Of a stretch of 34,999 nucleotides of DNA, positions 18,144 through 34,855 are shown piece by piece. Every line of letters starts with the position of its first letter. Within the stretch, counting starts at the first letter, position 1. A program made the position numbers and the translations under genes. The notes under the pieces are model-generated. The model did not search any database and was not told where the DNA came from. It saw only the letters and a list, made by a program, of their open reading frames with translations. The DNA comes from Lachnospiraceae bacterium (GTDB lineage Bacteria > Bacillota > Clostridia > Lachnospirales > Lachnospiraceae), in NCBI GenBank assembly GCA_017513625.1, contig JAFXEW010000048.1, forward strand, positions 1-34,999, read 5' to 3'.

Positions 18144-18173
18144 TATATATCTTATGTAGAATACAGATACCAA
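18144..18173 (-). promoter_or_regulatory. Possible promoter of S8 protease / pdaA operon
   Basis: On the minus strand, TTGGTA (18168-18173) and TATATA (18144-18149) have an 18-base spacer. The match is weak, and sporulation sigma-factor promoters cannot be excluded by eye. Confidence 0.3.
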
Positions 18174-18217
18174 ATGCATGGCCACATTCTTGACACCGGG
18201 AGTTTTCGCACATACAA

Positions 18218-18256
18218 ACCCCCTCTTATCAGAAATTTATCCTGATAAAAGGGGGT
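18218..18256 (-). terminator. Terminator of chemoreceptor gene
   Basis: A 15-bp stem, ACCCCCTCTTATCAG (18218-18232) with CTGATAAAAGGGGGT (18242-18256), has one wobble pair and a 9-base loop. It lies 26 bases past the stop at 18283. The trailing T-tract on the minus strand is short (TTTGTATG). Confidence 0.75.
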
Positions 18257-18282
18257 GCAAATTCCATATGATATAAAATTAA

Positions 18283-20145
18283 TTATCTGTCCCAGTCTGC
18301 TTCAATATCGTCAAAGTTAAAAGCACTTCCTGCAAACTCGTCCTCTTCACTTAGCTTAAACTGACCAACCAGATTTTTTAGACTTTCAGCCTGTGCATAC
18401 AATTCTTCACTGGTTGCTGATGTTTCCTCAGCAGCTGCAGAGTTGTTTTCAATAACGCCTACAATCTGCTCAATACCAGTCTCTATCTGAGCAATAGACT
18501 CAGCCTGCGACAAAGCTTTTGCATTAACTTCCTGCATGGAACCTGCAATTACATTGATGCCTTCCACTACTTTGCTAAGTGCTTCACTGGTAGTATTGGT
18601 GATTTGATTACCTTTAGAAATTTCATCCAGGGACTTCTGAATCATTTCACGGGTATTAACAGCTGATTGTGCACTATCTGCTGCAAGCTTACCAATCTGA
18701 TCTGCTACTACTGCGAAACCACGTCCCGCTTCACCGGCTCTTGCAGCTTCGATAGATGCATTCAGCGATACGAGATTCGTCTGGTCTGCAATGTCTTCAA
18801 TCTCACCGATAATCTTTTCGATTTCCGTAGATGTCACACTGATTCTTTCCATTGCTTCCAAAAGTGCAGCCATATTCTGCTGTCCCATTTCTGCTTCATT
18901 CTTATATGAAATAGCCTGTTCGAAGGATGCTTTAGTATTCTCTGCAGTCTCCTTTGCACTGTCTGCCAGGTTATTAATCATTGCTGTAAGTTCCTGAACA
19001 GCTCCTGCCTGCTCAGTAGCGCCTTCAGCAAGCGACTGTGCACTTTCTGCCATCTGACTACTACCAAGTGCAACCTGTGCTGCATTCTCGTCAATATCTG
19101 TCAAAGTGCTGCGAAGCTGTGCTGTAAGTTTTCTGACGGATACAATCAGAGATTTGAAATCACCTATATATACTGCTTCATTCTCCGTATCAGTAGTGAA
19201 GTCTCCTCCTGAAACTCTTTCCAATAAGACATCCACATCCTTGATTACATTTCGGAGGAATATAAAAATCTCCCTCATACTGTCTGCTAATCTGCCCAAC
19301 TCATCATCACCTGAATAATCAATGGTTATATTCAGATTACCCTCTGACAGTCTCTGAGCCGCCTCTTCAATTTCATTTACCGGCTCTGTAATACTTCTGG
19401 AAATTCTGTTAGCAATTGATAATGCCACAAGGGACGAAATAATAACAACAACAATAACTGCACCAAACGCCAGTATCACCAGAACCTCCGCCACCTCGAT
19501 ACTATTCAATGCGGCTGCTTCCTCTTCTTGTGCTACTCTGGCCAAATCTTCACCTATGGAAGTAGTAAGGGGATGCACTTTATCTTTCAGGGTAGTATAG
19601 ATTTTGGAACCAAGGCCGAACGAAGCGTTCATTTCCATTTCAGGATACAATTCCAATATCTGTTGTCTCTTAACTTCTATAGCATCAAAAACGGAATCAT
19701 CACCGGTATAATGCACTCTTAACTGATCAAGCACTACTTTTATGTTTTCTATGGAGGCTTTGGATGCGGCCACCTGCTCAATTACATATTTTGCATCACT
19801 GTCCAAAGATGCATTTAACATCGCTTCCTCGGCAGAAACAAGCTCATATCTGGCCTCCCAGCACTCCGTAGTTACAATATAATTCTCTTCATAAAAATGC
19901 CTCATCTGAGCACCGATGTATACCAGCATAACCAATGCAACTATACTTCCGATTAAGGACAGTGCAATGGTAAATATGTAAGAAGAACGCAACTTACCTG
20001 CAATGGATGTAGTATCTTTACCATTCCCATCTTTGGAAATAAACAAATTTTTAAAGTTCGATAACAAACCATTCGATGCTTTCGCTCTCTTAGCGACTTC
20101 CCTTCCGTTTACCTTGGTCTTAAATTTCTTTACTCTTTTGCCCAT
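18283..20145 (-). CDS. Methyl-accepting chemotaxis protein
   Basis: A 620-residue transmembrane chemoreceptor. TM1 is about 55-78, followed by an extracytoplasmic four-helix-bundle-like sensor (80-219), TM2 (220-244), HAMP (246-300) and a long cytoplasmic signalling coiled coil. The hairpin tip is conserved (EDIADQTNLVSLNASIEAAR, then AGEAGRGFAVVADQI). TSEELYAQAESL and a short acidic tail ending DIEADWDR close the protein. It has an unusually long basic cytoplasmic N-terminus of about 50 residues (KRVKKFKTK and onward) before TM1. The usual role is to control CheA/CheW and flagellar rotation. No che or flagellar gene is present in the window, so it is an orphan receptor. The start has only a weak GGGG box. 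Ligand unknown. Confidence 0.93.
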   Translation of the reverse strand: MGKRVKKFKTKVNGREVAKRAKASNGLLSNFKNLFISKDGNGKDTTSIAGKLRSSYIFTIALSLIGSIVALVMLVYIGAQMRHFYEENYIVTTECWEARYELVSAEEAMLNASLDSDAKYVIEQVAASKASIENIKVVLDQLRVHYTGDDSVFDAIEVKRQQILELYPEMEMNASFGLGSKIYTTLKDKVHPLTTSIGEDLARVAQEEEAAALNSIEVAEVLVILAFGAVIVVVIISSLVALSIANRISRSITEPVNEIEEAAQRLSEGNLNITIDYSGDDELGRLADSMREIFIFLRNVIKDVDVLLERVSGGDFTTDTENEAVYIGDFKSLIVSVRKLTAQLRSTLTDIDENAAQVALGSSQMAESAQSLAEGATEQAGAVQELTAMINNLADSAKETAENTKASFEQAISYKNEAEMGQQNMAALLEAMERISVTSTEIEKIIGEIEDIADQTNLVSLNASIEAARAGEAGRGFAVVADQIGKLAADSAQSAVNTREMIQKSLDEISKGNQITNTTSEALSKVVEGINVIAGSMQEVNAKALSQAESIAQIETGIEQIVGVIENNSAAAEETSATSEELYAQAESLKNLVGQFKLSEEDEFAGSAFNFDDIEADWDR

Positions 20146-20342: not shown

Positions 20343-20380
20343 ATATAAAAGTGGGATGGTACCCGGAAATGCCATCCCAC
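20343..20380 (-). terminator. Terminator of the ABC/DUF5696 operon
   Basis: A 9-bp GC-rich stem, GTGGGATGG (20351-20359) with CCATCCCAC (20372-20380), has a 12-base loop. On the minus strand it is followed by TTTTATATTG. It lies 36 bases past the stop of the last operon gene. Confidence 0.85.
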
Positions 20381-20416
20381 TTAAATTATTAGTTATGCTA
20401 TTATAAGAAACAAAAT

Positions 20417-21859
20417 TTATTTGTTAGCTTCGTCAAGCAGTGCCTGCCATGCATCTCTGATTTCTTCTGCCTTCTGTGCAGGAGTCTTGTCTGCGCTGAT
20501 ACCCCAAATGAAGTCATTGGAGAGATCAATACCAGGAACAAGTGCATGATAGGTTACGCGAGAGTTGTTAACCAGAGTTACTAAGGACTGATCAACAGAC
20601 TCGATATCGCGGAAGGACTGATAGTAGTTGTTCTTCCATGCTGCGAAATCTTCGAATCCAGGAATGGGCTCGGTGTACAGGTTGTAAGCAAATGCTAAGT
20701 TCCAAGCCTTCTGCTCATCGTAGCAAGCAGGAATTACATAAAGGTTATCAGATGCTACGTGGTTGTATTCAGTTGCCTTAGGTCCCTTAGGGAAAGGAAC
20801 GAAACCGAAGTCGTCTTCCATTTCCTTATATTCCTGACCAGCCATGTAGGTTTCACCATCTGCAAATGCAGCCTGACCGTTCTTGAATGCGGTCATGAAG
20901 TAATCCCAGTTAGAGCCTTCAGGATAGGTCTCAAGGTAAGTATTGTAGATATCAACTGCCCAGTTGATAGCTTCCATGGTAGCTTCGGTTTCCAGTTCGT
21001 TAACGAACTTGCCGTCTACCTTGTTAATGAAGTTAGCGCCGTTAGAGTAAACAGCTGCTACATAGAACCAAGAAGTCATGGTAGCTAAACCATATACATC
21101 GGTAACACCATCTGCGTTAACGTCACGCTGAACGGTCTTACAAACTTCTTCGAACTTATCCCATGTCCACTCACCGGACTCTGCCCACTTATAAACGTCA
21201 GCGGGATCGATACCAGCTTCCTGAAGCAGTCTCTTGTTGAAGTACATACCTCCACGAGGTTCTGCATCAATACCACGCATACCATAGATGCTGCCGCCGT
21301 CTGCATAGTACTCATGAACACCGTTGCTCCACTTCTCTTCGGAGAAGTCAAGGCAATCTAAAGTAGCCAGGTCATACATTAATCCGCTGTGCATAGCTTC
21401 AACTACAGCAGGGTCAGTTCTCAGAGTGAAGATGTAGTTCTCATCGCCACCGGTCTGTGCGTAGTTGTTGAAGTCTGCGGGAACATCTGCCCATCCGGAG
21501 ATAGCCTGCTCTTTAATAGTAAAGTTGTAGGTCTCCTGGATCCAGTCACGATATTCCTTCTGTGCCTGCTCGAAAGCAGTTTCAGGCTCTTTGGGTTCGC
21601 CAGAGAACCAGTCACGGATAATGATTTCCATGCCGCCTAAATCATAAACGTTACCATCAGCATCTTTGTAGATAGGGTAAGGGCTAACTTCGCCGGTCTC
21701 AGTAGAAGCAGCATCTGTGCTTACTGCGGGCTCTTTGCTGTCCTTATCTGCGTCGCTACCACCGGTAGATGCAGCATCATCACCACAGCCTGCCAGACCT
21801 ACGGTCATAACAGTTGCAAGCGCTGCAGCAATTAATCTCTTAACACTTTTCATTTTCAT
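20417..21859 (-). CDS. Extracellular solute-binding lipoprotein (sugar ABC importer)
   Basis: A 480-residue protein with a lipoprotein signal peptide: basic MKMKSVKR, a hydrophobic core and the lipobox LAGC with Cys25. A Ser/Asp/Thr-rich linker follows. The body is of family-1 (MalE-like) type: DWFSGEPKEPETAFEQAQKE near the start of the mature domain, YFNKRLLQEAGIDP, WTWDKFEEVCKTV, GYTF-equivalent GQAAFADGETYM, and FGFVPFPKGP. It captures a substrate, probably an oligosaccharide, outside the cell for the permeases encoded just upstream. Start ATG 21859 is 10 bases after AGGAGG (21870-21875). It is the last gene of the operon, preceded by a structured intergenic hairpin and followed by a terminator. 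The exact ligand cannot be read from sequence. Confidence 0.93.
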   Translation of the reverse strand: MKMKSVKRLIAAALATVMTVGLAGCGDDAASTGGSDADKDSKEPAVSTDAASTETGEVSPYPIYKDADGNVYDLGGMEIIIRDWFSGEPKEPETAFEQAQKEYRDWIQETYNFTIKEQAISGWADVPADFNNYAQTGGDENYIFTLRTDPAVVEAMHSGLMYDLATLDCLDFSEEKWSNGVHEYYADGGSIYGMRGIDAEPRGGMYFNKRLLQEAGIDPADVYKWAESGEWTWDKFEEVCKTVQRDVNADGVTDVYGLATMTSWFYVAAVYSNGANFINKVDGKFVNELETEATMEAINWAVDIYNTYLETYPEGSNWDYFMTAFKNGQAAFADGETYMAGQEYKEMEDDFGFVPFPKGPKATEYNHVASDNLYVIPACYDEQKAWNLAFAYNLYTEPIPGFEDFAAWKNNYYQSFRDIESVDQSLVTLVNNSRVTYHALVPGIDLSNDFIWGISADKTPAQKAEEIRDAWQALLDEANK

Positions 21860-21888
21860 TTTGAAATGTCCTCCTTTTTTATATACTT

Positions 21889-21945
21889 TTCCTTACAGAG
21901 CCTGTACTTTACTTTCCGGGTAATACAGGCTCCTTACGTAAGGAA
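21889..21945 (-). other. Structured intercistronic hairpin before solute-binding gene
   Basis: The inner stem GAGCCTGTA (21898-21906) pairs with TACAGGCTC (21924-21932). The outer stem TTCCTTAC (21889-21896) pairs with GTAAGGAA (21938-21945). A short CCTTACGTAAGG palindrome (21933-21944 region) offers an alternative fold. No T-tract follows on the minus strand, so it is not an ordinary terminator. It probably protects or processes the mRNA of the downstream solute-binding gene. Confidence 0.65.
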
Positions 21946-21962
21946 ACATATACCGTATTTAA

Positions 21963-22988
21963 TTACATCTTGATACCGGAACTGCTCAGGGACTCTACGA
22001 ATCCCTTCTGCGCAAACAAATACAATACTAACAGGGGAACTACCACCATCAATGTACCTGTTGCAACAATACAGTTGGTATAACCTACAGATGCACCTGC
22101 TGCGTTTCGCAGGTCGATCTGAATATACTGCATCAGTCTGTCACCCAATCTGGAAAGCTCTACTGATAACAGAGAGGTATTACCCAGGAAGGTCTTGGAA
22201 TAGAAGCTATCCGTCCACTGCCATACAAAACTGAACAGGAAGCAGGATGTAAGGATGGGCTTCGCATCCGGTAACATAATTCTGATGAAGGTCTTTAATG
22301 TACCACAACCATCCACATATGCAGCCTCTTCCAATTCCTTGGGAATATTACGGAAGAACTGACGAATCAGGTATATGTACAAACCGTTTTTCAGACCCAT
22401 ACAGGTCACACTCATAAGATAATAAGGCAATACAGAACCTCTTAAATTGAGTGCTTCACCCGTCAACAATTCTATTATACCAAATATATCAAAAAAACGG
22501 AAGTGTAAATATAAGGAAGTTGAAATTGCCTGTGTAGGAATTACAACTGTCAATATAACACACGCGAACCAGAAGTTCTTAAGAGGGAAATTAAATCTTG
22601 CAAAACCGTATCCAACCAATGTGGACATACCTACTTGGACAATTGCAATTGTAAGGGAAATAACAAAAGTATTCCTAAATGCAGTTGCATAATTGGTCAA
22701 ATAAGCGGTGAGCTGATAATTTGCAGTCGTAAAATGTTCCGGTATGGAAATAACCATTGCATTATAGAGATCCTGCTCCTCCATGAAACTAATGGAAATC
22801 TTATTTAAGAGGGGTTGAAGAATCATAAAGCACATACCAAAAAGCATAATTGCTCTACATACCTTTACTGCCGCACTCTTACAGCTCTTTTGGAATAAAT
22901 ATCCTTCAGATTTTTTATTTCTTTCCCAGTATGCTTCCCATCTGTTCTTCAAGGGAGCCTTTTTTGCTGTTGTAGCTGCTTTACTCAT
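21963..22988 (-). CDS. Carbohydrate ABC permease, MalG type (second set)
   Basis: A 341-residue inner-membrane permease with about six TM segments and the cytoplasmic EAA loop EEAAYVDGCGTLKTFIRIMLP (219-240), which docks the ATPase. It is longer than the usual ~280 residues because of an N-terminal cytoplasmic extension of about 42 residues rich in K/A and aromatics. It ends SSSGIKM, as is common for this family. The start overlaps the end of the upstream permease gene by 8 bases, so translation is coupled. It pairs with the MalF-type permease before it and the lipoprotein after it. The operon has no ATPase gene; a shared MsmX/UgpC-type ATPase elsewhere is the usual solution. Confidence 0.93.
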   Translation of the reverse strand: MSKAATTAKKAPLKNRWEAYWERNKKSEGYLFQKSCKSAAVKVCRAIMLFGMCFMILQPLLNKISISFMEEQDLYNAMVISIPEHFTTANYQLTAYLTNYATAFRNTFVISLTIAIVQVGMSTLVGYGFARFNFPLKNFWFACVILTVVIPTQAISTSLYLHFRFFDIFGIIELLTGEALNLRGSVLPYYLMSVTCMGLKNGLYIYLIRQFFRNIPKELEEAAYVDGCGTLKTFIRIMLPDAKPILTSCFLFSFVWQWTDSFYSKTFLGNTSLLSVELSRLGDRLMQYIQIDLRNAAGASVGYTNCIVATGTLMVVVPLLVLYLFAQKGFVESLSSSGIKM

Positions 22989-23889
22989 AGTAATAAACCC
23001 CCTTAGAAATAATCAGTGAAACAAGTCCGATGATTGCGATTACGATTGCAAAATAGGACCAGGCCATCGCAGATGAGAATCCGTATTCCAGACTAACCGT
23101 CATTACAAAGGTTATTCTGTCCATAACTTCATTATCCGTACGCATACTGAAATCTACAATCGTATAAATCATATTTACAAGGAATAAGGAGGAAATCATA
23201 GGGAAGGTAATCTTCCATAAGCTCTCCCATGCTGTACAGCCCTCAATAGCTGCTGCTTCGTACATACTCTCAGAAATAGTCTGCAGACCGGAAAGGAAGA
23301 TAATAATCTGAATACCGGAAGCAATTGCCACATCGTAGATTCCGTCCACGATATCAAATACTATCTCGAAAGGTTTTACACCTACACCTGCTGTAACCAG
23401 AATTTCCTTTACAATATCTGAAATTCCGCTCACACCGGTGGATTCCTGAATGGTATCCTGCAAAGCTGCAAGCAGCGTATTGTCATATTCAACACCAAGG
23501 ATAACACCGGAAGACAGGATAACGGGAAGGAAGAAAATAGCTCTAACCAACGCACGTCCTTTAAACTTCTGATTTAAAACCAGTGCAACGAAGAAACTGA
23601 AAACCATGATAGCCAGTGCATTAATAACCATTCGGCCAAGCTCATCCGTTAACAGCTGGTTAAATTGAACATCACGTAAGAATGTTCTTGCATAATTATC
23701 TAATCCGATAAAATGGTTGATTGGACCATTCGGAGTTACCTCCACATCACAAAAGCTCATGTACAATGAATGGACAAATGGCTTAACCATAAATCCCAAG
23801 AAACCTATGATGAAAGGTAAAATAAATATATAACCGGCAATTGCCTTTCTTTTCTGAAGGCCCGCTAATTTATTTTTTTGCTTTTTCAT
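22981..23889 (-). CDS. Sugar ABC permease, MalF type (second set)
   Basis: A 302-residue permease with six TM segments, the family's NHFIGLDNYARTF region near residue 60, and the EAA loop YEAAAIEGCTAWESLWKITFP (210-230). Between about 134 and 185 it carries an extra hydrophilic-to-amphipathic segment, longer than in typical MalF-like permeases of this size, probably outside the membrane. An AAAGGG box precedes the ATG. It follows the DUF5696-like gene with a 27-base gap. Confidence 0.92.
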   Translation of the reverse strand: MKKQKNKLAGLQKRKAIAGYIFILPFIIGFLGFMVKPFVHSLYMSFCDVEVTPNGPINHFIGLDNYARTFLRDVQFNQLLTDELGRMVINALAIMVFSFFVALVLNQKFKGRALVRAIFFLPVILSSGVILGVEYDNTLLAALQDTIQESTGVSGISDIVKEILVTAGVGVKPFEIVFDIVDGIYDVAIASGIQIIIFLSGLQTISESMYEAAAIEGCTAWESLWKITFPMISSLFLVNMIYTIVDFSMRTDNEVMDRITFVMTVSLEYGFSSAMAWSYFAIVIAIIGLVSLIISKGVYYYE

Positions 23890-23916
23890 CTTTATACCCT
23901 TTCTTTACTCTGACGG

Positions 23917-26514
23917 CTATTTAATTACCACATAATCTCTTGCAGGAATCTTTACGCCGCCTGCTGAATAATCCTGTTCACGATAGTTAACGTATACCTT
24001 TGTTCCGTCCTGATATGTCGTACAGGTAATCTCGGTATCCAGAACTTCGTGATTAACCATTCTCTGATTAAAGGTATGGCCTAAATCATCATTGTACTCT
24101 TTGTAAATGTCTAAAATCTTGTCATGCCATAAGGAATAATCTGCTGCGAAATACTGCGTATACAGTGTCTTCTGCAATGCAAAAGCAGTCTCTTCCATTA
24201 CGGTGAAGGATAAGCCCGCACCAAACTCTGCAGAACGAAGCAATACTTCATTCATGTGCTGTGCCAGGTTCAAAGGTTCATCCGTATAGTTGATATATCC
24301 GTGAAGCGCTAACTGATAAAAAGGTATCTCATAGTCGATAATGGTATATCCGGAACCACCCAGATCCATGTTGGTCACCATGTCAACATAAGGAACTGCA
24401 TAATCATTTCCTGTATTGATCATCATCTTAGCTCCTGCATCATCAGCAGCTTTCAGTTTCTCAATCTGTACTTCCAGAACATTCTGTCTGCTATGATAAT
24501 TGCCTCTCTTATAGTCGGATGATAAATCCTTACCCAGGTTTTCAAAGGATACACCTGCATTGTAAGAATCTGCAGTCTCCAGCATCGTATCTATACCTTC
24601 CATAATCAGGTCATGTCTTAACAGATAATATTCATCCAAATCATCACGCTGACTAAATGTAGTAGTAGAATACTCATACAGCTCAGCCTTTTCTTTACTT
24701 GCAAAGCGTGCCGCATCAGTGAATACCATAAATCCGTCAAATATATTGCTGTCCTTTGCATAGTCTGTCATACCGTTCAGATATACATCAATGCCCTTTT
24801 CAGCGGAACTGTCAATCAGACTTTGTAAGGATTTCTTATTTCCCAGCGCAGACACAGGTTTTACTTTATTGAGTACCTGCTGTTTAACACCACCGTTCAT
24901 CCAACCGGTTAACTTAACAGACATATTATCAATTCCGTCTGCATTTAACTCATGAACGATGTTCTCTGCTCCGCTAAAAGTAGTGAGCTTATGAGGTCTG
25001 GAAACAGGAACACCCAGAATCTGTCTTACCTTATCAACTGCACCAAGGATTTCAACAACTACGGGAGTACTATTATCATCATTTATGGTCAGATAATCAC
25101 CGTATTTATTTACCAGATACTTATTATAGTCGTTAGCCATATCCACATAGCTGTCAGAATTGATAAATCTGTATCTGTGCTTAATGCTGCCTTCCAAAGG
25201 ATTTTCATTGTAAACGAACATGTTACCATTATAGATGGTACCTACATCGTACTGTTCACGTGTAACGATATTGTACTGTGCGTTTACGTTATTAAAGCTG
25301 TTAATCTTTCCACTGATATTGGCCTGTACCGCACCGTAGGGAGCTCCCTCTTCCATAATACAGATATAGCTGTTTCCGTCACGTGCTATACCGAATACAT
25401 TATAGTGTGCTCTGGTCTCATGTACAACCGCTTTTCTTGCTGTTGCATAGTCCCAACCATATACATTTGCGTAGTAGCTGTTCTGTGCCACCTTACCATT
25501 ATTGAAGTTAATGACAGCACCGCCGCCTTCGGGTACTACCATATAACCTTCATCAGCAGTACCGCCTGCACCAAAGAAAGGAAGTACGCTCAGGTACAAA
25601 ATAGGATAATCCTTTTTGTATTCCATGGTTTCCATGGGAATCTCAACGATTAAATCTTCACCGTCAAAGCGATAAATCATATCCAGGTTGAAAACAGGCT
25701 TGTCGGATACCTTTTCCTTCAGATTTAATTCCTTATGTGCCAGATACTCTTCATAAGTATAACCTGCATCGCCGAATAACTGTTCAAACTTGGTTCTCAT
25801 GTTATCCTTGGTACCGTCACGGAGAACAAATATCGGCTCCTGTTCGATGATAGGATAGAACTGTAATAATTCTTCCTTATTGTCATTTTTACCAAGTTTA
25901 TTAAGATCGAACTTCTGGTAATACATTTCTATCAGAACGGTATCACTCTTGTTCATCTTAGCCATCCATTCTTCCATTTCCGCTACGGTAATAACGGGAG
26001 GAATCACATATTCCTTATCGGTATCACCGATAGAGTAGTGAATGGTAATAGCATCATCTGTTGCTTCGATATCATAAATCCGATTTACCATACTGTAAGT
26101 ATAGTTATTATAAATGGTATCAACACCATTGATGGTACTGTATGTAAGTACCAGTGTGGATCTTAAGTTACCACGTTCAACAGTCTGTGCAATCACATCG
26201 TTTTCTGCACCTTCGGGATTGGAATCCCATCTCATGCCGGAACGGGTATCTTCCACATAGAACTGGGTAGTGGTAGGATCCATAACAAATTTAATCTTAC
26301 CGCTTTTACTTTTCAGTTCAATAGGATCATCGGAGCCTTCATATCCGTTTACCTGAATTACCTCTTCAACTTCTTCAGGCACTTCGTATAACATTACGAC
26401 CAAAACACCTGCGAGAATAATTAAACAGAGAATGATGGGTCCTATGAGGCTTTTCAGCTTGGCTGCAAAAGCCGCGCCTAAACCGTTTTTCTTTGCTTTA
26501 TTGTTTTTCTTCAT
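23917..26514 (-). CDS. Large membrane-anchored protein resembling DUF5696
   Basis: An 865-residue protein with a basic N-terminus, one TM anchor (about 23-44) and a large extracytoplasmic part. About 60-480 looks beta-rich (many alternating-hydrophobic strands, GGGAVINFNNGK, FGIARDGNSYICIMEEG). About 490-790 has an alternating beta/alpha pattern compatible with a TIM barrel. Conserved-looking acidic stretches there are SFENLGKDLSSDY (656-668) and YTIIDYEIPFYQ (723-734). A small beta domain closes the protein. A beta-sandwich followed by a barrel is the plan of several glycoside hydrolase families, so a glycan-active role is plausible, but no named GH family is recognised. The family label is from memory. 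The start is supported by GGAGGG 11 bases upstream. It sits mid-operon between the two permease sets. Confidence 0.8.
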   Translation of the reverse strand: MKKNNKAKKNGLGAAFAAKLKSLIGPIILCLIILAGVLVVMLYEVPEEVEEVIQVNGYEGSDDPIELKSKSGKIKFVMDPTTTQFYVEDTRSGMRWDSNPEGAENDVIAQTVERGNLRSTLVLTYSTINGVDTIYNNYTYSMVNRIYDIEATDDAITIHYSIGDTDKEYVIPPVITVAEMEEWMAKMNKSDTVLIEMYYQKFDLNKLGKNDNKEELLQFYPIIEQEPIFVLRDGTKDNMRTKFEQLFGDAGYTYEEYLAHKELNLKEKVSDKPVFNLDMIYRFDGEDLIVEIPMETMEYKKDYPILYLSVLPFFGAGGTADEGYMVVPEGGGAVINFNNGKVAQNSYYANVYGWDYATARKAVVHETRAHYNVFGIARDGNSYICIMEEGAPYGAVQANISGKINSFNNVNAQYNIVTREQYDVGTIYNGNMFVYNENPLEGSIKHRYRFINSDSYVDMANDYNKYLVNKYGDYLTINDDNSTPVVVEILGAVDKVRQILGVPVSRPHKLTTFSGAENIVHELNADGIDNMSVKLTGWMNGGVKQQVLNKVKPVSALGNKKSLQSLIDSSAEKGIDVYLNGMTDYAKDSNIFDGFMVFTDAARFASKEKAELYEYSTTTFSQRDDLDEYYLLRHDLIMEGIDTMLETADSYNAGVSFENLGKDLSSDYKRGNYHSRQNVLEVQIEKLKAADDAGAKMMINTGNDYAVPYVDMVTNMDLGGSGYTIIDYEIPFYQLALHGYINYTDEPLNLAQHMNEVLLRSAEFGAGLSFTVMEETAFALQKTLYTQYFAADYSLWHDKILDIYKEYNDDLGHTFNQRMVNHEVLDTEITCTTYQDGTKVYVNYREQDYSAGGVKIPARDYVVIK

Positions 26515-26534
26515 AGTCGCTCAAACCCTCCATC

Positions 26535-27194
26535 CTATTGCATTCGGAAGATGATCTCTCTACCCATGGAGATAAAGTAAGAGACACCCTGGCTAATCAT
26601 ACTAAAGAACAGTAACAGAATAAACACTTCAACCAGCATTGCAAAAATGGTAGCAACACAGAAGAACAATGTTTTACCCAATTTATATTCATGTATCTGC
26701 ATCATTGCAAATATAATCAGGAACACTGCCCATACAAGGGAAAATGCACTGAGTATGCTATGGAACTCTGCCTCATCCACAGTTACACCGTTACTGAAAA
26801 TAATCAGCGGGAACTGAATCAAAGGATAAGGAATCATACAGTAGCATGTTGCCATATAAATCTGTTTCAGTCTGGCCTTACCTTCGAACAATGTGGTAAG
26901 CGCCCAGTTACCTACGCACCAGAGTGCAAGGGGGAACAGAATACTGGCAATGTACAGGAAGATATTGATATCTTCCCAGTATACCTTGTTGAAAATAAAG
27001 CTTGTATATTGAAGCTTCATAATTCTGGCAAGTACTGTTAAAAACAAGATTGTATTAGCAGCTGCCAGCGTACCTCTTTTTTCATGTGTGAGGTCCCAAT
27101 ACCCATCCAGGGGATGTGTGGTACAATACAAGGCAAACTTTAATGATTTAAAATACTTTGTATATGTTTCTTTCTTTGTTAATGAACTAAACAT
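26535..27194 (-). CDS. Yip1-family membrane protein
   Basis: A 219-residue protein with five hydrophobic segments (about 44-60, 75-98, 113-134, 147-166, 176-202). The N-terminal motif THPLDGYWDLTHEKRGT precedes TM1, typical of bacterial Yip1-like proteins. The cytoplasmic N-terminus is about 40 residues. The function of bacterial Yip1 proteins is not established; this one is encoded between an NHL-propeller protein and the DUF5696-like protein, suggesting an assembly or scaffolding role in the same envelope complex. The ribosome binding site AGGAGG is perfect. Confidence 0.85.
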   Translation of the reverse strand: MFSSLTKKETYTKYFKSLKFALYCTTHPLDGYWDLTHEKRGTLAAANTILFLTVLARIMKLQYTSFIFNKVYWEDINIFLYIASILFPLALWCVGNWALTTLFEGKARLKQIYMATCYCMIPYPLIQFPLIIFSNGVTVDEAEFHSILSAFSLVWAVFLIIFAMMQIHEYKLGKTLFFCVATIFAMLVEVFILLLFFSMISQGVSYFISMGREIIFRMQ

Positions 27195-27206
27195 GTCTGC
27201 CTCCTA

Positions 27207-28706
27207 TCACCTTCTAAAATATTCGTCAGTATCGATTTCATGCTTAATGGCTTTTATCTTGCCGATAGCTGTGGGAACACCGAATATAACCACAAGTGCA
27301 ATAATTACCCAGAGAATATTCTCTTCCACCACATCTTTTCGGTACTGCTTGAAGGCTTTGGAGTAATTTTCTTCATCATACTTTAATTCAAAGTACTCAA
27401 GAGACTCGCCAAATCTTTCCTGACGCATCAGCGCTCTACCTACACCGATGTAAGCAAGGTCGTAGTTACCGTTATAAGCGATAACTTCCTGCCAGGTATC
27501 ACCGGACTTGGTATACTCACCTGCCTGGAACTGCTCAACCGCATCGAATATCTTCTGACCGAACTCTGTGGGTCTGAATACGGTAATACTACAATCCAGT
27601 GAATCTAATACTAACAGATCGTGCCCCATATGTTCAATCGCTGCAGGTTGTCTGAAATATCCATCCTGATTACCGGCTCCGCCGAATGCGTAAACCAGAT
27701 TACCCTGGTCATCATACGCAAATATACGTCCGCGGTTCTTATCCAGAAGATAATAAATATCATTATCCATCGCAGTTACGTCAATAATCTGGGAAGGTCC
27801 GGTATATCCACCGCCTTCGTCCCAATGGATATCACCAATTACGAACCAGTTACCGTTACGTACCAGGATATCGGAACCCATCAGATTCAGTCTCTTAACC
27901 GCATCTGCATCTCCGGCATCCAATTCAGCAGGAGAAGCCTTACTGGTACATACATAAATGAATCCTTCATGATCCATGAAAATATTTTCGTACTCTGTAG
28001 GAACAAATGCTTCCATCTGAGCTCTCTGCTCTTTGGTGGACAACTTCTTCCACAACCAATCCTTAAAGGAATAGGTTACTTCTGCCGCACCGATGAATCC
28101 TGAGAATTCACCATCCTCTTCAAACTTGATAACACCCTTGTTTACGTTTGTAGCGATACAATATACACGGTCAGCAGTATCAATACAAAGCTTATCGGGC
28201 AGGAAGCTCAGGTCCTGAGGAAAGTTAGGGTCATCAGGCTTAGTGAACTCCATAATAAATCTCAAGTCTTTATCAAGCTTTACAATACGGTTGTTATTCT
28301 TATCAGCGATAAAAATATTACCCGCTTCGGAAACTGCGATATCGGTAGGAGTATTAAATGTGTTAATCTCTACATCACCGTAGAAACTGTCGAACTCTCT
28401 TACCAAAGAGAAAATACCCTGGTCATCGCGTTCCAGCTCAATAATTCTGTGATTATTGGTATCACAGATATACACGTGATTGTCACGTACATAAAGCGCA
28501 CTGGGATTCACCAGCTTGGAATCCAGACCCATGTCAACACCGGTCAACACCTGGGCTACAGTGTATGCATCGGGTGAGTACTGTACGTCTCCCCAATAGT
28601 CAAAGTTATAAGTATAACCTTTTTCAGCATTTACTACCATGGATGAACTTAAGCCTATGATAATACATGCCAAGAATACAGAAAGTCTTTTCATTGTTTT
28701 TCTCAT
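27207..28706 (-). CDS. Secreted NHL-propeller protein with C-terminal TM anchor
   Basis: A 499-residue protein with a cleavable signal peptide (AxA-type site near VVNA-EKG, residue 27). Repeated NHL blades follow (LVNPSALYVRDNHVYICDTN; FNTPTDIAVSEAGNIFIADK; further weaker blades to about 390), consistent with a six-bladed propeller. A TPR-like helical pair comes next (about 395-450: YDLAYIGVGRALMRQERFGE), then a C-terminal TM (about 462-482) and a short charged tail. The propeller would face the outside. NHL propellers usually bind proteins or polysaccharides. It lies between the first permease pair and the Yip1 gene, in the same operon. Ligand unknown. Confidence 0.87.
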   Translation of the reverse strand: MRKTMKRLSVFLACIIIGLSSSMVVNAEKGYTYNFDYWGDVQYSPDAYTVAQVLTGVDMGLDSKLVNPSALYVRDNHVYICDTNNHRIIELERDDQGIFSLVREFDSFYGDVEINTFNTPTDIAVSEAGNIFIADKNNNRIVKLDKDLRFIMEFTKPDDPNFPQDLSFLPDKLCIDTADRVYCIATNVNKGVIKFEEDGEFSGFIGAAEVTYSFKDWLWKKLSTKEQRAQMEAFVPTEYENIFMDHEGFIYVCTSKASPAELDAGDADAVKRLNLMGSDILVRNGNWFVIGDIHWDEGGGYTGPSQIIDVTAMDNDIYYLLDKNRGRIFAYDDQGNLVYAFGGAGNQDGYFRQPAAIEHMGHDLLVLDSLDCSITVFRPTEFGQKIFDAVEQFQAGEYTKSGDTWQEVIAYNGNYDLAYIGVGRALMRQERFGESLEYFELKYDEENYSKAFKQYRKDVVEENILWVIIALVVIFGVPTAIGKIKAIKHEIDTDEYFRR

Positions 28707-28725
28707 ATCTTACCTCATCCTATCA

Positions 28726-29625
28726 TTAATCTTTTAATCCGGAGCTTGCCATTGTTTCAAGAATCTGGCTCTCGGACATAATAAATATTGTAATGGGCAC
28801 TACCATGATAACGATACTTACCGCCTGAACCTGACCGGTTCTTGCGATACCGCCGCCACCTACCTGCTGCAGTGCATATACCAATGTCTTCTTCTCTTCG
28901 GAGTAGATAAACATATTTGCAGGGTTGTTCCACAAGCTCTGTACGGAGTAAATAATCATGGTCAACCATGCAGGCTTAACGTTAGGCATTACGATGTCAA
29001 TAAATACTCTCCACTCTCTCGCACCGTCAATCTTTGCCGCTTCAATCAGTGACATGGGCAAACCTTCCATAAACTGCTTCATCAGGAAGAAGCCCATGGG
29101 GAATGCAAATGCGGGGATAACCAGTGACCAGTATGTATCAATCCAGCCGAATGCATTCAGAATCAGATAGTTAGGAATCTGAGTAATGTATCCGGAAAAC
29201 ATCAGGGATACGGTAACTACTTTAAAGAATGTCTTTCCGCCGGGGAAATCATACTTTGCAAGTACGAATGCACCCATGGAAGCAACAATCAAATGTCCTG
29301 CCGTACCGGCAAATGTCAACCATACGGTATTAAATATATATCTGGAGAATGTAACCCAGGACTTACCCATGGTTACAAACAAATCTGCGAAATTGTCCAA
29401 AGTAGGGTTCTGCGCCAGAATCTTAGGCGGGAACAGGAACAATTCGTCCAGTGGCTTCAGGGCACTGCTGACCGAGAACACCAAGGGGAAAACCATTAAA
29501 AACGCCATACCCAGCAGGAAAAGATACAGAAAGAAGTCTCCAACTAAGGAACGATTGGGTTTTCTCTTTTTTAAAATTTTCGCTTTCGGCTTGTAAGCCT
29601 TTTCTACTTTCATCTTTTTGCTCAT
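28726..29625 (-). CDS. Carbohydrate ABC permease, MalG type (first set)
   Basis: A 299-residue permease with a basic 28-residue N-terminal tail, six TM segments and the EAA loop IEAAKIDGAREWRVFIDIVMP (194-214). It ends SSGLKD, as typical. ATG 29625 lies one base after the TGA of the preceding permease gene, so translation is coupled. It forms the heterodimeric channel with the MalF-type protein before it. Confidence 0.94.
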   Translation of the reverse strand: MSKKMKVEKAYKPKAKILKKRKPNRSLVGDFFLYLFLLGMAFLMVFPLVFSVSSALKPLDELFLFPPKILAQNPTLDNFADLFVTMGKSWVTFSRYIFNTVWLTFAGTAGHLIVASMGAFVLAKYDFPGGKTFFKVVTVSLMFSGYITQIPNYLILNAFGWIDTYWSLVIPAFAFPMGFFLMKQFMEGLPMSLIEAAKIDGAREWRVFIDIVMPNVKPAWLTMIIYSVQSLWNNPANMFIYSEEKKTLVYALQQVGGGGIARTGQVQAVSIVIMVVPITIFIMSESQILETMASSGLKD

Positions 29626-29626
29626 A

Positions 29627-30568
29627 TCAGGTTCCTACTCTTCTCAATAAACTTTGAATTCCCTTGTTACATAAAATCATAACTACAAACAGTACTGTTG
29701 CAATTGCTGATGCATAACCCATTTCGAATCGGGTGAAACCGTAGTCGAAAAGGTGTGTAACAACTGTACGCGCCTCATAATCGGTACTGGGGTAGCCACA
29801 CAGCTGCATGGTAACATCACAAACACCGAAGGACTGGGTAATGGTCATAACCGCACCGAACAGAAGCATGGGCTTCATATTAGGCAGTGTAATGAACCAT
29901 AGTTCCTGCCAACGGTTCTTAATTCCGTCCATGTAACCTGCTTCAAACTGTGCACGGTCAACACCCTGCAGACCTGCAACAAAAGCAAGGAAGCCGGAAC
30001 CCAAACTCATCCAGAGAATAACCACCATACAAATAGGAAGCATATATCTGGGATCCTGGAACCAAAGAATAGGTGTGTCAATAATGCCCATCTCCATGAG
30101 CAGTGCATTCATATTACCGTATGCATCACCTCTAAAGAGAATGGAGAATACTACCAGACACGCTGCACCTGCAATGGAAGGAGCATAGAATACCACGATT
30201 GCAATGGTTCTGATCCAACGGGGTAATTCGTTGATCAGCCAGGCAAACAGGAAGGACATCAAATATCCCAAAGGACCTGTTATAACTGCAATCATAAAGG
30301 TGTTTTTAACACCTTTCAGGAAGATATCATCATCCAGAATCAAGCTGGTGTAATTGTCCAAACCAATAAATCTGGGCATTTCCAAAATATTGTAATAAGT
30401 AAAACTGAAGAAAATAGATGTAACCAGCGGTACAATATAGAATACCGCAAATACTAATGCATACGGTGCCAGGAACGCATAACACATTTTACTCTTCTTG
30501 GCTTTCTTCACGCCAACCTGGAAGTTGTGCTTGCGCAAGGCAAAATACTTCTTAATATACTCTTTCAT
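29627..30568 (-). CDS. Sugar ABC permease, MalF type (first set)
   Basis: A 313-residue permease with six TM segments, the family's PRFIGLDNYTSLI segment (about 65-77) and the EAA loop FEAGYMDGIKNRWQELWFITLP (208-229), in which the usual EAA is EAG. AGGAGG just upstream supports the start. It follows the large solute-binding protein gene by 9 bases, which indicates one transcriptional unit. Confidence 0.94.
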   Translation of the reverse strand: MKEYIKKYFALRKHNFQVGVKKAKKSKMCYAFLAPYALVFAVFYIVPLVTSIFFSFTYYNILEMPRFIGLDNYTSLILDDDIFLKGVKNTFMIAVITGPLGYLMSFLFAWLINELPRWIRTIAIVVFYAPSIAGAACLVVFSILFRGDAYGNMNALLMEMGIIDTPILWFQDPRYMLPICMVVILWMSLGSGFLAFVAGLQGVDRAQFEAGYMDGIKNRWQELWFITLPNMKPMLLFGAVMTITQSFGVCDVTMQLCGYPSTDYEARTVVTHLFDYGFTRFEMGYASAIATVLFVVMILCNKGIQSLLRRVGT

Positions 30569-30577
30569 GCCTGCCTC

Positions 30578-33529
30578 CTATTCAGTGGGTAAACCGAACT
30601 CGCGTCGTTTCTTCGTAAGCTCTTCGTTAATTACGATACCATAGTCCAGAATGGTCTCTCTGGGATCTTCATGATTAATCATAATCATACGGCAAGCATT
30701 GGAGATATGACGTCCGGTGTAATAACCGCCGGGAACTTCACGGATACCTACGTTCCAATCCCACTGTTCATCCAGAACTTCAATCTCTTCCGGACTCCAT
30801 GCCAGTTCTTTCATTGCTGCTCTGTTAGCAGTTGCATATCGAGCAGAAGAACCGAGCAATGCTTCGATTTCACGACCGAAACGAACCTGTGTATCCTTAG
30901 ACACCCACCACTTCATGAATTCCCATGAATTATCTCTGATGTTCTGGTCATCGGTCTTTATCATCATACATGCGGAACCGGATGTAAAGTTGGATCTGTC
31001 AATGTAGGTTCTGCCGTTTTCATCCACTCTCTCGGTACCGGGGATTACGGTAAAGTCCCAAAGACCTCTGATTTCGGGAGCGGAAACAACCAATGTATTG
31101 TATAAAGTATAACTCTGGATACCGATAGGCATTTCACCTGAACGGAATCGGCTGGGGAAGTCATAAATAATAGGAATGCCGTAGTCGGTAAACCACTTGG
31201 TGTAATCGGCAAATGCCTCTACACCTGCTTCCGTATCAATTACGGTTCTGGTACCCTTTTCATTATATAAATCACCGCCGTACTGGAACAGCAACGTGAA
31301 ATACATGGTAAGGTCAGGGTTGTTAGTGGTTACTACAGTAGCACCGGGTGCAGAAGCACTGCTACCGCCGGCTGTAGGAATAGCAACCGTCATGTTGTTA
31401 CCCTGAATGGTAGGAAGCATTTCAATCAAATCCTGCCATGTCTGAGGAACTTCAAGTCCCAGTTCCTCTAAAATATCTGTACGATAGAACATTACGTTGA
31501 ACTGCTGACTCTCAGGCAATCCGTATAATGCACCGTCCAGACCAATCTGTTCGTATGAACTGCGTGAGAAATCTGTCAGTACCTCGTCAATGTCATCGAA
31601 CTGTGTCAAATCTTCAACTGCATTACGAAGGGCGTAGTTTACAGGCTGATCAGCACCTACGGAAAGTGCCACATCCGGACCTCTTCCTGCAAGTACTGCA
31701 TTCAGCAGTGAACCGGGGTTAACGATTTCCACGTTTACCTTGATTCCTGTCTCGGGAGTAAAGGTGTCGTCAATCATGGTCTTTAAGATGGTACCCTGGT
31801 CACGACCGGTGGTTACCCAAACCTTGATCGCATCTTTTCCTTCGGAACCTTCGTATACATCACCTACTGCATCATAGTCTACGATGAAGGATGCAAAGAA
31901 GGACTTGATTTCATGGAAGATACTTGCGAAAATACCCGCCTTATCCTTCTTAACTTCTGCGTCTGCACCGGAAACTACCAGGTAGTCAACATCCAGCTTG
32001 ATTTCCGCCATGTTCAGGATAGCAGTACCAAGTGCAGAAACATTTTCCTTAAAGTTTGCAAACTCTACAGTAATCTTTTCGGGTTTCTCTACAAATCTTT
32101 CAAGCTGAACAGCCAGTGTCTGCGCTGTGGCAATCTTATCAGCCTTCTGACCGGTATAAGCAACTACGTCATCTACAATCTTATATAATCTTTTTGCTTC
32201 CAGATCCATTGCAGTGATTACTTCAGGGTACTGCTGATGAATCTTGTAATCCCTGTATTTATCAGGAGTAGCACCGGTGTATACCAGCAGCTTACGGTAA
32301 ATCAGATTCAAACGTGCGGTGGAATTCTCCAATTCTTCAAGAATAGGTCCCATATCGCCCAGTGTAGCTTCCAGACGAATGGTATGATCACCCTTCTTTA
32401 AATAGAACTTGTAAGGATCACCGTTTTCATCTGCCAGGGTCTGAAGATTCCAGTCATTGTCATAATCAAAGCTGATTGCTTCTACTTCACTGAAAGGAAT
32501 CTCGCCGTCGATATATACGCTTCTGCTGGAAACGGAACCACGCTGATAATTCTGACGTCCCTTTACGGAGATGTTGTAATAACCATCCTCAGGAACGCTG
32601 AATTCCCACTCAATCCACTGACCGGATGAACGCCATGAATCACCGCCGGTGTAGTTCATCAGGGTCTTCATTACACTGTTGGGCTGTGTGGTAGGTGAAG
32701 AACGGTCGTACTTCGCATACAGGGATGCATCGGAACGAACAGTGGATGCCTCACCCTGAATCTGCTGGTAATAGCTTAAGCCTTCGCCTGTAGCCTCTTT
32801 ACCGCCCACCTTTGCAATATACTCTTCGTATGTATCTCTCTTTTCAACGCCTTTAATATTAATCGCACCGATGACCAACGGTTCATTAACAGCTTTAATG
32901 GCAACTTTGTTAGCACCCTTCTCAAAATAGAAGCAGTACGGCTCGGAGATATATCCCATATCGTCTTTCAGATATGTACTCTGCCACTCAAAACGCTCAA
33001 TCTGGGTAGGACGGATTTCATTGCCCTGGTTATCTTTCTTAACAGGACCGGCATCCACCCAAAGTCTGCTAAACGTCATGTTCTCTGCATCGTCAAAAGG
33101 CAGTTCTCCGTTAATATAGAAAGCACGCTCTGCGGCAACACCGCGGGACTCTACAGTCATATACTCCATTTCTACATTATAAAAACCGCTTTCAGGGATA
33201 TTAACCTCCCATTCAACAAAAGAACCGGATTCTGTATACAGAGCGTCTCTGCCGTAATCAATACTGCGCTCTTCAATTCCGGCTCCGGACTGAAAATCCA
33301 TCACGGAAATCTCCACATTCTTCTGTGGATACTTCGCATCCGCATGAGCGCTCAGATAAAGAGAATATGTCCCCTTTCTCTCTGCACCCTTTACGTCTTC
33401 CGTCAGGTCATAGCCTTCGTATTTAGCGCGATAACTATCAGCGGTGGTCAGTCCGTTGATGGCATAAATTAACACGATAAACAATGCTATGCCGCCTAAT
33501 AACAACAACTTCTTTGTAGAGTCTTTCAT
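30578..33529 (-). CDS. Membrane-anchored solute-binding protein with two beta-sandwich modules
   Basis: A 983-residue protein with an N-terminal signal anchor (about 7-26) and no lipobox Cys. Two homologous beta-sandwich modules follow. Module 1 is about 100-228 (FVEWEVNIPESGFYNVEMEY, FYINGELPF, YCFYFEKGANKVAIKA). Module 2 is about 302-390 (WIEWEFSVPEDGYYNISVKG, VYIDGEIPF, YKFYLKKGDHTIRLEA). Their layout resembles CBM6/35-type carbohydrate-binding folds. A helical region spans 395-555, then a family-1 solute-binding domain about 566-960 (IKVWVTTGRDQGTILKTMID, GRGPDVALSVGADQP, LYGLPESQQFNVMFYRTDIL, SGSACMMIK). It is about twice the usual length. Start ATG 33529 is supported by GGAGG; the frame to 33625 has no such site. 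It is the first gene of the operon. Confidence 0.9.
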   Translation of the reverse strand: MKDSTKKLLLLGGIALFIVLIYAINGLTTADSYRAKYEGYDLTEDVKGAERKGTYSLYLSAHADAKYPQKNVEISVMDFQSGAGIEERSIDYGRDALYTESGSFVEWEVNIPESGFYNVEMEYMTVESRGVAAERAFYINGELPFDDAENMTFSRLWVDAGPVKKDNQGNEIRPTQIERFEWQSTYLKDDMGYISEPYCFYFEKGANKVAIKAVNEPLVIGAINIKGVEKRDTYEEYIAKVGGKEATGEGLSYYQQIQGEASTVRSDASLYAKYDRSSPTTQPNSVMKTLMNYTGGDSWRSSGQWIEWEFSVPEDGYYNISVKGRQNYQRGSVSSRSVYIDGEIPFSEVEAISFDYDNDWNLQTLADENGDPYKFYLKKGDHTIRLEATLGDMGPILEELENSTARLNLIYRKLLVYTGATPDKYRDYKIHQQYPEVITAMDLEAKRLYKIVDDVVAYTGQKADKIATAQTLAVQLERFVEKPEKITVEFANFKENVSALGTAILNMAEIKLDVDYLVVSGADAEVKKDKAGIFASIFHEIKSFFASFIVDYDAVGDVYEGSEGKDAIKVWVTTGRDQGTILKTMIDDTFTPETGIKVNVEIVNPGSLLNAVLAGRGPDVALSVGADQPVNYALRNAVEDLTQFDDIDEVLTDFSRSSYEQIGLDGALYGLPESQQFNVMFYRTDILEELGLEVPQTWQDLIEMLPTIQGNNMTVAIPTAGGSSASAPGATVVTTNNPDLTMYFTLLFQYGGDLYNEKGTRTVIDTEAGVEAFADYTKWFTDYGIPIIYDFPSRFRSGEMPIGIQSYTLYNTLVVSAPEIRGLWDFTVIPGTERVDENGRTYIDRSNFTSGSACMMIKTDDQNIRDNSWEFMKWWVSKDTQVRFGREIEALLGSSARYATANRAAMKELAWSPEEIEVLDEQWDWNVGIREVPGGYYTGRHISNACRMIMINHEDPRETILDYGIVINEELTKKRREFGLPTE

Positions 33530-33913
33530 AGTCGCCTCCATGTGTAAACTAAAAAAATCATTGGATTTCATCCGCCAAAAATCACATTTTCCCCAAAAAA
33601 GGGCGCAAATATGACCATAGCACACTCCATCTTATATCACATTATATATTACCTTCTTCCAAAGCGCTTCCTAATTCTTGCTCTTTTTTCTTCACAGATT
33701 GCTTATTTATGCCTAAACTTTTGAAATTTTATTGTGCAACATTTACTTTTATGCAAACAGATGATACAATAATTATACTCTATACACGGTACATTTTCAC
33801 AAAAATGAGAGTTTTTAATCAAGTTGCCGTTAATTGACCACAAGATTTGCCAACGCAAAATTTGCGACATCATCATCTTGGGGTTTCGTACTATTTCGAC
33901 AAAGGACAAAACG
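33530..33913. promoter_or_regulatory. Divergent regulatory region between ABC operon and AraC gene
   Basis: A 384-base gene-free stretch. On the plus strand TTTACT (33742-33747) and the extended -10 TGATACAAT (33762-33770) are spaced 17 bases and could drive the AraC gene, with a long leader of about 135 bases. On the minus strand TATAAT (33641-33646) is a candidate -10 for the operon, without a good -35. Just upstream of it lies the palindrome-like CCAAAGCGCTTCCT (33659-33672), a partial match to CcpA/LacI-type operators. A weak -35 is what one expects of an AraC-activated promoter, but no AraC half-sites could be assigned. Confidence 0.55.
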
Positions 33914-34855
33914 ATGGAAAAGGAATTTGAAGCACCTAATTACAATTCTGTAAACATTGACTTTTCGGGTTACCGCAACGTGGACAATGCCCAAGAGCTT
34001 GTAGATTACTACAAAGACTCCAATATCCGCATCTGGCTGAACGACGGCAACTACCCCTTCGACACACACTGGCACAATGCTTTGGAGATACTTATGCCTG
34101 TGGATGAACCCTACAAAGCAGTGGTCAAAGAGACTACTTATGTAATCCAGCCCGGCGAGTTTCTGATTATCCCACCCAGGGAATTACATTACCTGCCGGC
34201 TCCCACATGCGGCAGCCGTTTTATTTTTCTGATTGATACATCACCTCTTGCAGGCATCAGAGGATTTACCGGCCTTCAGGCACTGCTGTTGCAGCCCGTT
34301 CTGTTTAATAAAGAGCACTTCCCTGCCATTCACAGCGAAGTGTATCATGATTTACTGCAGATACGGAACACCTATTATAATATGAATGAATACGCAGAGC
34401 TCACCATATATTCCCTGCTGATTACTATCCTGGTCAAAATCGACCTGGCGCAAAAAAACATTGCGGACATGTTCCCCAATGTACGCCTCTATAAGCAGAA
34501 GGAATATAAGCAAAAGTTTACCAATCTGCTGGAATATCTGAACAGCCACTATATGGAAGATTTGGATCTTGAACAGGTTTCTGCCGAAATCGGCTTCTCC
34601 AAATTCCATTTCTCCAGACTGTTTAAGCAGTATACCGGCTATACATTCTGCGATTATGTAAATTACTGCCGTCTGCGCGTAGCCGAAGAAATGCTGGCCA
34701 AGCCCGACTGCTCCATTACGGAAATTGCACTACAGTCCGGTTTCCCCAGCATCTCAACCTTTAACCGTCTGTTTAAGCAGCATAAGGGCTGCAGCCCCAG
34801 TGAATACCGGGCTAAAAACACCACGGATGTACGCAGACATAATTCCCGCAAATAA
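33914..34855 (+). CDS. AraC-family transcriptional regulator with cupin sensor
   Basis: A 313-residue protein. The N-terminal cupin domain has HWHNALEILMP (about 52-62) and YVIQPGEFLIIPPRELHYL (76-94), typical of sugar-responsive AraC regulators. The C-terminal double HTH is about 204-300: DLEQVSAEIGFSKFHFSRLF, then SITEIALQSGFPSISTFNRLF, and the family tail GCSPSEYR. ATG 33914 is preceded by AAAGGA and is preferred to the non-ATG start at 33824. It is divergent from the ABC operon and is its likely activator, responding to an imported sugar. The ligand is not identifiable. Confidence 0.93.
   Translation: MEKEFEAPNYNSVNIDFSGYRNVDNAQELVDYYKDSNIRIWLNDGNYPFDTHWHNALEILMPVDEPYKAVVKETTYVIQPGEFLIIPPRELHYLPAPTCGSRFIFLIDTSPLAGIRGFTGLQALLLQPVLFNKEHFPAIHSEVYHDLLQIRNTYYNMNEYAELTIYSLLITILVKIDLAQKNIADMFPNVRLYKQKEYKQKFTNLLEYLNSHYMEDLDLEQVSAEIGFSKFHFSRLFKQYTGYTFCDYVNYCRLRVAEEMLAKPDCSITEIALQSGFPSISTFNRLFKQHKGCSPSEYRAKNTTDVRRHNSRK

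Follow-up and report, generated by a model that had tools for sequence, protein, structure and literature searches.

We describe a cassette of eight genes that many bacteria of gut and soil share in one conserved order and that probably makes one glycan-import machine, not two neighbouring importers. We found it in a contig of a Lachnospiraceae bacterium (JAFXEW010000048.1); the window, by which we mean the whole stretch of 34,999 nucleotides (nt) analysed, is this entire contig, from a 2.17-Mb genome with a completeness estimate of 82%. In order of transcription, the cassette encodes a solute-binding protein (SBP1), two permeases (F1 and G1), a trio made of an NHL propeller protein, a Yip1-domain protein and a DUF5696 protein, and two further permeases (F2 and G2); in the window a second solute-binding protein, SBP2, follows as a ninth gene. 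The one-machine reading rests on the conserved gene order, the co-occurrence of the genes, the fusion of NHL with Yip1, the MalK-type gene found upstream of some cassettes, the EAA loops of the permeases, the identity correlations among the genes and the glycosidases that flank them. The parts have been annotated individually, and no description of the combination, or of what the whole block does, was found in the open-access literature, a scope outside which most subscription papers fall; to that extent the sequence-only reading of the window, which knew of no described function for the combination, is borne out.

Gene order was followed in 182 loci (176 of them distinct): 60 from the window's family, 80 from named genomes (the best of at least 536 places there), 2 from plasmids and 40 more. 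The best 80 comprise 30 from Paenibacillus or Cohnella, and also represent Caldicoprobacter, Lederbergia, Gracilibacillus and Oscillospiraceae. As 27 of the distinct loci lack enough flank, 149 could be tested, and 143 of these have exactly the order SBP1-F1-G1-NHL-Yip1-DUF5696-F2-G2 on one strand, with a median gap of 5 nt, a recurrence that makes the arrangement more than chance. Four exceptions (L051, L112, L162 and L193) have the core order with genes split into two open reading frames (ORFs), in a fifth (L081) G1 is relocated to the end, and the sixth (L146) is considered below; insertions of 1.6–2.7 kb occur in 3 of the 143 exact-order loci (L109, L191 and L208). The number of copies can be high, reaching 16 in Paenibacillus mendelii and 10 in P. 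castaneae, and all 26 of these cassettes have the eight core genes, with split ones in L193.

Co-occurrence across genomes was run as a refutation test set beforehand, in a sample of 200 genomes of the window's family (Lachnospiraceae). DUF5696 exceeds 100 bits in 44 of the 200, and NHL and SBP1 (both at E≤1e-30) are each present in 43; these two lists of genomes are identical, and the DUF5696 genomes are the same 43 plus one, G030, which holds a shorter, soluble relative (Fisher p for NHL versus DUF5696, 4e-43). DUF5696 matches number 79/200 at E≤0.001 and 59/200 past the Pfam cut-off; since the weaker ones cover just part of the profile, only the 44 genomes above 100 bits were counted. The conservation of Yip1 was judged by the neighbourhood of the trio loci. 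The expectation that the trio would prove conserved in other genomes is thus upheld, both by this co-occurrence and by the order kept in 143/149 loci. At the level of the phylum, DUF5696 was found at E≤1e-60 in 37/398 genomes, and seven of those loci were opened (L213–L219). The DUF5696 alignment (A1) covers 58 of the 60 family loci, L046 having been left out by hand and L086 for its length; a 59-row alignment held no stretch conserved enough for scanning.

The genes are also linked in their sequences. NHL and Yip1 form one polypeptide in 77/176 loci, a strong hint that the two proteins would work together. Pairwise identities of the eight core genes correlate at 0.82–0.93 over 115 loci and, among paralogous cassettes within single genomes, at 0.78–0.98 (eight gene pairs, 13–25 comparisons each), values that are partly due to shared descent. 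An apparent Yip1-DUF5696 fusion in L046 (an ORF of 1101 amino acids, aa) was discarded, because its first part overlies a distinct Yip1 ORF in another frame. SBP1 or NHL genes standing free of a cassette were likewise discarded as candidates, not all of the 70 SBP1 places having been opened: among 11 SBP1 or NHL places selected for having no seen DUF5696 partner, 10 are cut by contig ends and the other, L232, is a whole cassette.

In the window all nine genes lie on the minus strand, from 33625 down to 20417, and an AraC-family gene is divergent from them, as judged from the ORF list, Pfam and translations. The features are as follows.

33914..34855, plus strand: AraC-family regulator (Pfam HTH_18, 5.7e-25; homologues in the same place in L033 and L043)
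33530..33913, no strand: divergent intergenic region between SBP1 and AraC (DNA reading of starts)
30578..33529, minus strand: SBP1, solute-binding protein with an N-terminal membrane anchor, a CBM35-like region and a helical spacer (Pfam, PDB profile matches, hydropathy)
29627..30568, minus strand: F1 (PF1), CUT1-type permease with EAA loop (Pfam BPD_transp_1; EAA glycine)
28726..29625, minus strand: G1 (PG1), CUT1-type permease with EAA loop (Pfam BPD_transp_1; EAA glycine)
27207..28706, minus strand: NHL beta-propeller protein with a hydrophobic segment at either end, the N-terminal one signal-like (Pfam, PDB propellers, hydropathy)
26535..27194, minus strand: Yip1-domain membrane protein (Pfam; four hydrophobic segments)
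23917..26514, minus strand: DUF5696 protein with an N-terminal anchor and a large GH129-related ectodomain (Pfam, PDB profile matches, hhalign)
22981..23889, minus strand: F2 (PF2), permease with EAA loop (Pfam BPD_transp_1; EAA glycine)
21963..22988, minus strand: G2 (PG2), permease with EAA loop, overlapping F2 by 8 nt (Pfam; ORF coordinates)
20417..21859, minus strand: SBP2, solute-binding protein resembling a lipoprotein, the member that varies most (PDB 6rjy match; translation)
20349..20382, minus strand: terminator-like hairpin 3' of SBP2 (folding versus shuffles)

Taken in order of transcription from the ORF coordinates, the intergenic gaps are 9, 1, 19, 12, 20, 27, -8 and 103 nt, so that strands and spacing are as had been read from the sequence. 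SBP1 probably starts at ATG 33529, which has GGAGG upstream, in preference to GTG 33625 (the ORF limit), and the AraC gene probably at ATG 33914 in preference to TTG 33824 (its ORF limit), which places 384 nt between the two genes; the contig ends, at 34999, 144 nt past the AraC gene. The single terminator proposed at the end of the operon is backed by a hairpin after SBP2 with an 11-bp stem and a U-rich tail (z -2.78; 4/200 shuffles fold equally well), and is not listed by a consensus terminator scan, probably because the loop is too long for that scan. A promoter scan returned 34 sites against 36.9 expected, and an Rfam search gave no match.

The importer sets resemble CUT1 systems, as had been proposed. 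BPD_transp_1 is found in all four permeases, in F2 barely past the cut-off (27.2 vs 26.4 bits), and the glycine of the EAA loop is present in 99% of 121 aligned homologues of F1 and in 100% of those of G1 (128), F2 (137) and G2 (134); the two EAA permeases and the solute-binding protein of a CUT1 importer are thus both found, the latter in SBP1 (Pfam SBP_bac_8, 5.1e-25) and in SBP2, which matches the arabino-oligosaccharide-binding protein 6rjy in the PDB (9.8e-13), has a lipobox-like LAGC close to its start and matches no Pfam family at E≤0.01. F1 and F2 are 24% identical and G1 and G2 20% over the aligned part; a 40-locus permease tree without outgroup recovers F1, F2 and G2 as one clade apiece, but not G1. 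SBP1, a member of the invariant core that carries CBM35-like sequence and a membrane anchor (a single N-terminal hydrophobic segment; this and the following topologies are from simple hydropathy), has PDB profile matches of three kinds, namely coiled coils, solute-binding proteins and the CBM part of a cycloisomaltooligosaccharide glucanotransferase, and by our own reading of its sequence may hold two CBM-like repeats. The NHL protein (Pfam NHL, 1e-14, with propeller matches in the PDB) has a signal-like start, then the propeller, and a hydrophobic segment at its C-terminus, and the Yip1 protein (Pfam Yip1, 4.8e-11) has four hydrophobic segments.

The sequence-only reading had called both importers ATPase-less, which is true of the window, where no MalK-type ATPase is among the nine genes, and is not true of all cassettes: in 15/176 loci, all in Paenibacillus, Cohnella or Lederbergia, SBP1 is immediately preceded (-15 to 100 nt) by a MalK-type gene, a single one for two permease pairs. 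Elsewhere in the window's genome there are one UgpC-family ATPase past the cut-off and one weaker match, candidates for driving this importer. It is established that several sugar importers can share one ATPase (PMC7658222).

The DUF5696 protein of the window (Pfam DUF5696, 8e-191) has one N-terminal hydrophobic segment and a large ectodomain. A DUF5696 profile of 39 sequences matches, in the PDB, 8rzg ('conserved hypothetical periplasmic protein', 2e-10), the 3,6-anhydro-D-galactosidase 5opq (2.6e-10), which we take to be a GH129 member, and the alpha-N-acetylgalactosaminidase NagBb (5wzn, 2.5e-7); against five GH129-related proteins hhalign gave probabilities of 98.7–99.2% over 440–478 columns. 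The kinship to GH129 is distant, and PF11308 has no match in the window protein at E≤0.01. The catalytic residues of NagBb, presumably numbered Asp435 and Glu478, fall on D418 and E461 of L175, one of the five relatives, which aligns with NagBb lengthwise, and both are invariant among the five. Among 134 cassette DUF5696 proteins, by contrast, the best share of acids in any column is 40% at the nucleophile strand, where the profile alignment has a gap and places the DUF5696 counterpart only to within a few residues, and 37% at the acid/base position, with an acid present in 63/134 and 64/134 proteins, respectively. The window protein has E658/N659 and N700/T701 at these places, and the catalytic pair is absent. 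Other acids of DUF5696 are better conserved: E763 (99% acid), D727 (83%) and D667 (72%). We have therefore not assigned DUF5696 to GH129, since the homology is present and the catalytic Asp/Glu pair is not conserved; for the same reason, DUF5696 probably binds a glycan rather than cutting it. In the earlier proposal of a surface machine that captures or trims a glycan and feeds two importers, it is accordingly the trimming that is weakened, and the placing of the trio as a unit between two CUT1-like sets that stands.

The soluble relative in G030 (L238, 9675–11357) is a 560-aa protein without the N-terminal part and adjoins one importer and its solute-binding protein. It keeps YID and SSE motifs at the GH129 catalytic positions, from which the cassette branch seems to have lost the GH129 acids; with its apparently intact GH129-type acids, L238 may possibly represent a new glycosidase clade.

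Around the constant core, SBP2 and the flanking genes vary. Counterparts of SBP2 were recognised by a common profile (≥60 bits) in 98 sequences, as against 138 for DUF5696, and SBP2 may stand upstream or downstream of the core. The flanks were tallied from ORFs of 280–1200 aa drawn by seeded shuffle. The Bacillales-rich flanks (108 of 148 ORFs) gave GH26 and GH43 (5 each), GH38 and GH76 (2 each), ABC_tran (13) and OB_MalK (9), and the family flanks (102 of 215) gave GH43 (10), the GH51 C-terminal domain (6), GH130 and GH26 (5 each), GH3 (3), and GH5 and GH10 (2 each); CBM65 proteins, CBM35 proteins and GH115 also occur, and many flank ORFs are non-enzymes. The flanking enzymes vary by cassette, being those for mannan, arabinan or xylan, and with glycosidases beside many related cassettes the supposed glycan setting gains support. 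GH10 genes neighbour three of the four cassettes nearest to that of the window (L039, L043 and L050) and a GH115 gene the fourth (L033), which makes xylan or glucuronoxylan fragments the likely substrate here, as our best guess; the window's genome has 7 GH10 matches.

We infer that the trio and the importers form a single surface machine, a proposal that takes in complex formation, transport, the hand-over and its direction, the role of each trio protein and the substrate here. At the cell surface, glycan fragments would be held by membrane-anchored, CBM35-like SBP1 and by the DUF5696 ectodomain, predicted to be a barrel that is related to GH129 and lacks the conserved catalytic pair. The NHL propeller and Yip1, in many loci a single chain, would make up a scaffold in the membrane by which these binding parts stay close to two MalFG-like permease pairs. 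Both pairs would be driven by a MalK/MsmX-type ATPase, whose gene precedes SBP1 in some cassettes of Bacillales and lies elsewhere in the genome studied here. SBP2 and the flanking glycosidases would then fit the core to its substrate, here most likely a xylan-derived oligosaccharide. A bolder form of this proposal, which we put forward tentatively, is a double-barrelled ABC importer in which two MalFG-like channels, one type of ATPase and a scaffold of propeller, Yip1 and pseudo-glycosidase would be a single complex; this complex would pass large glycan fragments from a shared capture platform on to its channels, as a Gram-positive counterpart of SusCD with a varying SBP2 and varying enzymes providing specificity.

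Several observations weigh against a single glycan-import machine built in this way. In L146 the trio and F2/G2 have no SBP1-F1-G1 beside them, and it is only about 4 kb further downstream that an SBP-F-G set of the ordinary kind is found. Neither the 60 family loci nor the 80 named loci (the best of at least 536) showed a neighbouring MalK-type gene, and the identity correlations, as said, owe something to common ancestry. Where the profile finds SBP2 (85 loci), its divergence tracks that of the core (0.76–0.88), which makes it variable rather than freely swapped, and an exchangeable SBP2 depends on loci in which the profile finds none. No glycosidase was found in the window, where the only related find among the ten other ORFs scanned is a polysaccharide deacetylase, and in the fifth-nearest cassette (L059) the place of GH10 is taken by a GH5 and by sugar isomerase/kinase genes. 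On a Paenibacillus cellulosilyticus plasmid (NZ_CP054609.1, L172) the neighbours of one cassette, which carries a ugpC ATPase of its own, are LLM-class flavin oxidoreductases and additional solute-binding proteins, unusual surroundings suggestive of a modified substrate or one that is not a glycan. Finally, acids lie near both catalytic positions in 21/134 DUF5696 proteins, so some of these could be enzymes, and E763, D727 and D667 may be structural or may belong to another active site.

The main rival holds that two CUT1 importers, independent of each other and each taking up a different product of one glycan, share only their regulation, with the trio an accessory of one of them, probably F2/G2. 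That each set has EAA-loop permeases and a solute-binding protein, that F1 and F2 are so divergent and fall in separate clades, and that the trio stays with F2/G2 in L146 are what such an arrangement would give; however, no free-standing SBP1-F1-G1 set turned up at the 11 places described above, the trio lies between both sets in 143/149 loci, and the 15 MalK-bearing loci have one such gene for two pairs, and we consider this rival unlikely. It is rather doubtful that DUF5696 would be an active surface glycosidase trimming glycans before import. The length of the GH129 homology, the proteins with acids at one or both positions, the conserved E763, D727 and D667, which could provide another pair, and the uncertain counterpart of the nucleophile would all fit such an enzyme, whereas the acids invariant in the five GH129 relatives vary in DUF5696 and are replaced in the window protein, and one family found beside mannan, arabinan and xylan enzymes would suit binding better than one cleavage activity. 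Most improbable to us is a trio that acts outside the transport path, as a transport-coupled sensor reporting glycan binding to regulators: AraC genes and histidine kinases do stand beside several cassettes, but these regulators vary while the trio is constant, and Pfam finds no signalling domain in the trio proteins of the window.

As a single glycan importer, the cassette shares features with several known systems and differs from each of them. (i) Like the CUT1 importers with multitask MsmX/MalK-type ATPases (PMC7658222), it has a solute-binding protein, EAA-loop F/G permeases and a MalK-type ATPase, upstream in some loci and putatively in trans in others; unlike them, it combines two permease pairs with NHL, Yip1 and DUF5696 in a single conserved block, and has an SBP1 with CBM35-like sequence and a membrane anchor. 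(ii) With the Gram-positive polysaccharide utilisation loci (gpPULs), as presented in passages of PMC5320581, it has in common a transporter, a regulator and, in many relatives, varying glycosidases, and a transport system and a transcriptional regulator (AraC) are both present in the window; a gpPUL, however, is defined at the level of the locus, unlike the eight-gene core, which is not mentioned in those passages, the terms NHL and Yip1 having 0 occurrences in its main text. (iii) The DUF5696 ectodomain is homologous to the GH129 glycosidases (NagBb, 5wzn; 5opq), from which it differs in its unconserved catalytic Asp/Glu, its membrane anchor and its place in a cassette. (iv) As in SusC/SusD of Bacteroidetes (passages of PMC5320581), a conserved capture-and-import core occurs in several copies per genome with varying enzymes; in contrast, the cassette is ABC energised and has no TonB-dependent channel and no SusD. 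Neither a TonB-dependent channel nor a SusD lipoprotein had a Pfam match in the nine window genes.

Less is understood of how Gram-positive bacteria of the gut and soil capture long glycans than of the SusCD route that Bacteroidetes use. If our proposal is true, the eight-gene core would be a general uptake engine, present up to 16 times in one Paenibacillus genome and in several plant-glycan enzyme settings. DUF5696, a family without an assigned function, would gain a testable role, as would the Yip1 and NHL proteins of bacteria, and the cassette would serve as a genomic marker for the prediction of substrates.

Other observations concern the surroundings of the cassettes. A cluster of 13 flank ORFs after G2 in family loci (L034, 14845–16773, and related) has a CBM65-bearing representative, and another, of 17 flank ORFs, has a DUF624 representative. 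The Butyrivibrio fibrisolvens plasmid pNP243 (242,710 nt; L171) carries a complete cassette, a GH43 gene and a histidine kinase/response regulator pair. In the window, just downstream of the cassette (15420–20145), there are a chemoreceptor gene and then, on the same strand, two ORFs with a 23-nt overlap, which encode a subtilase and a polysaccharide deacetylase. At 8260–15305, three large sensor proteins are encoded consecutively, two hybrid histidine kinases (receiver and Hpt) and one HD-domain protein with a receiver, and two of the three have HisKA_7TM sensor regions.

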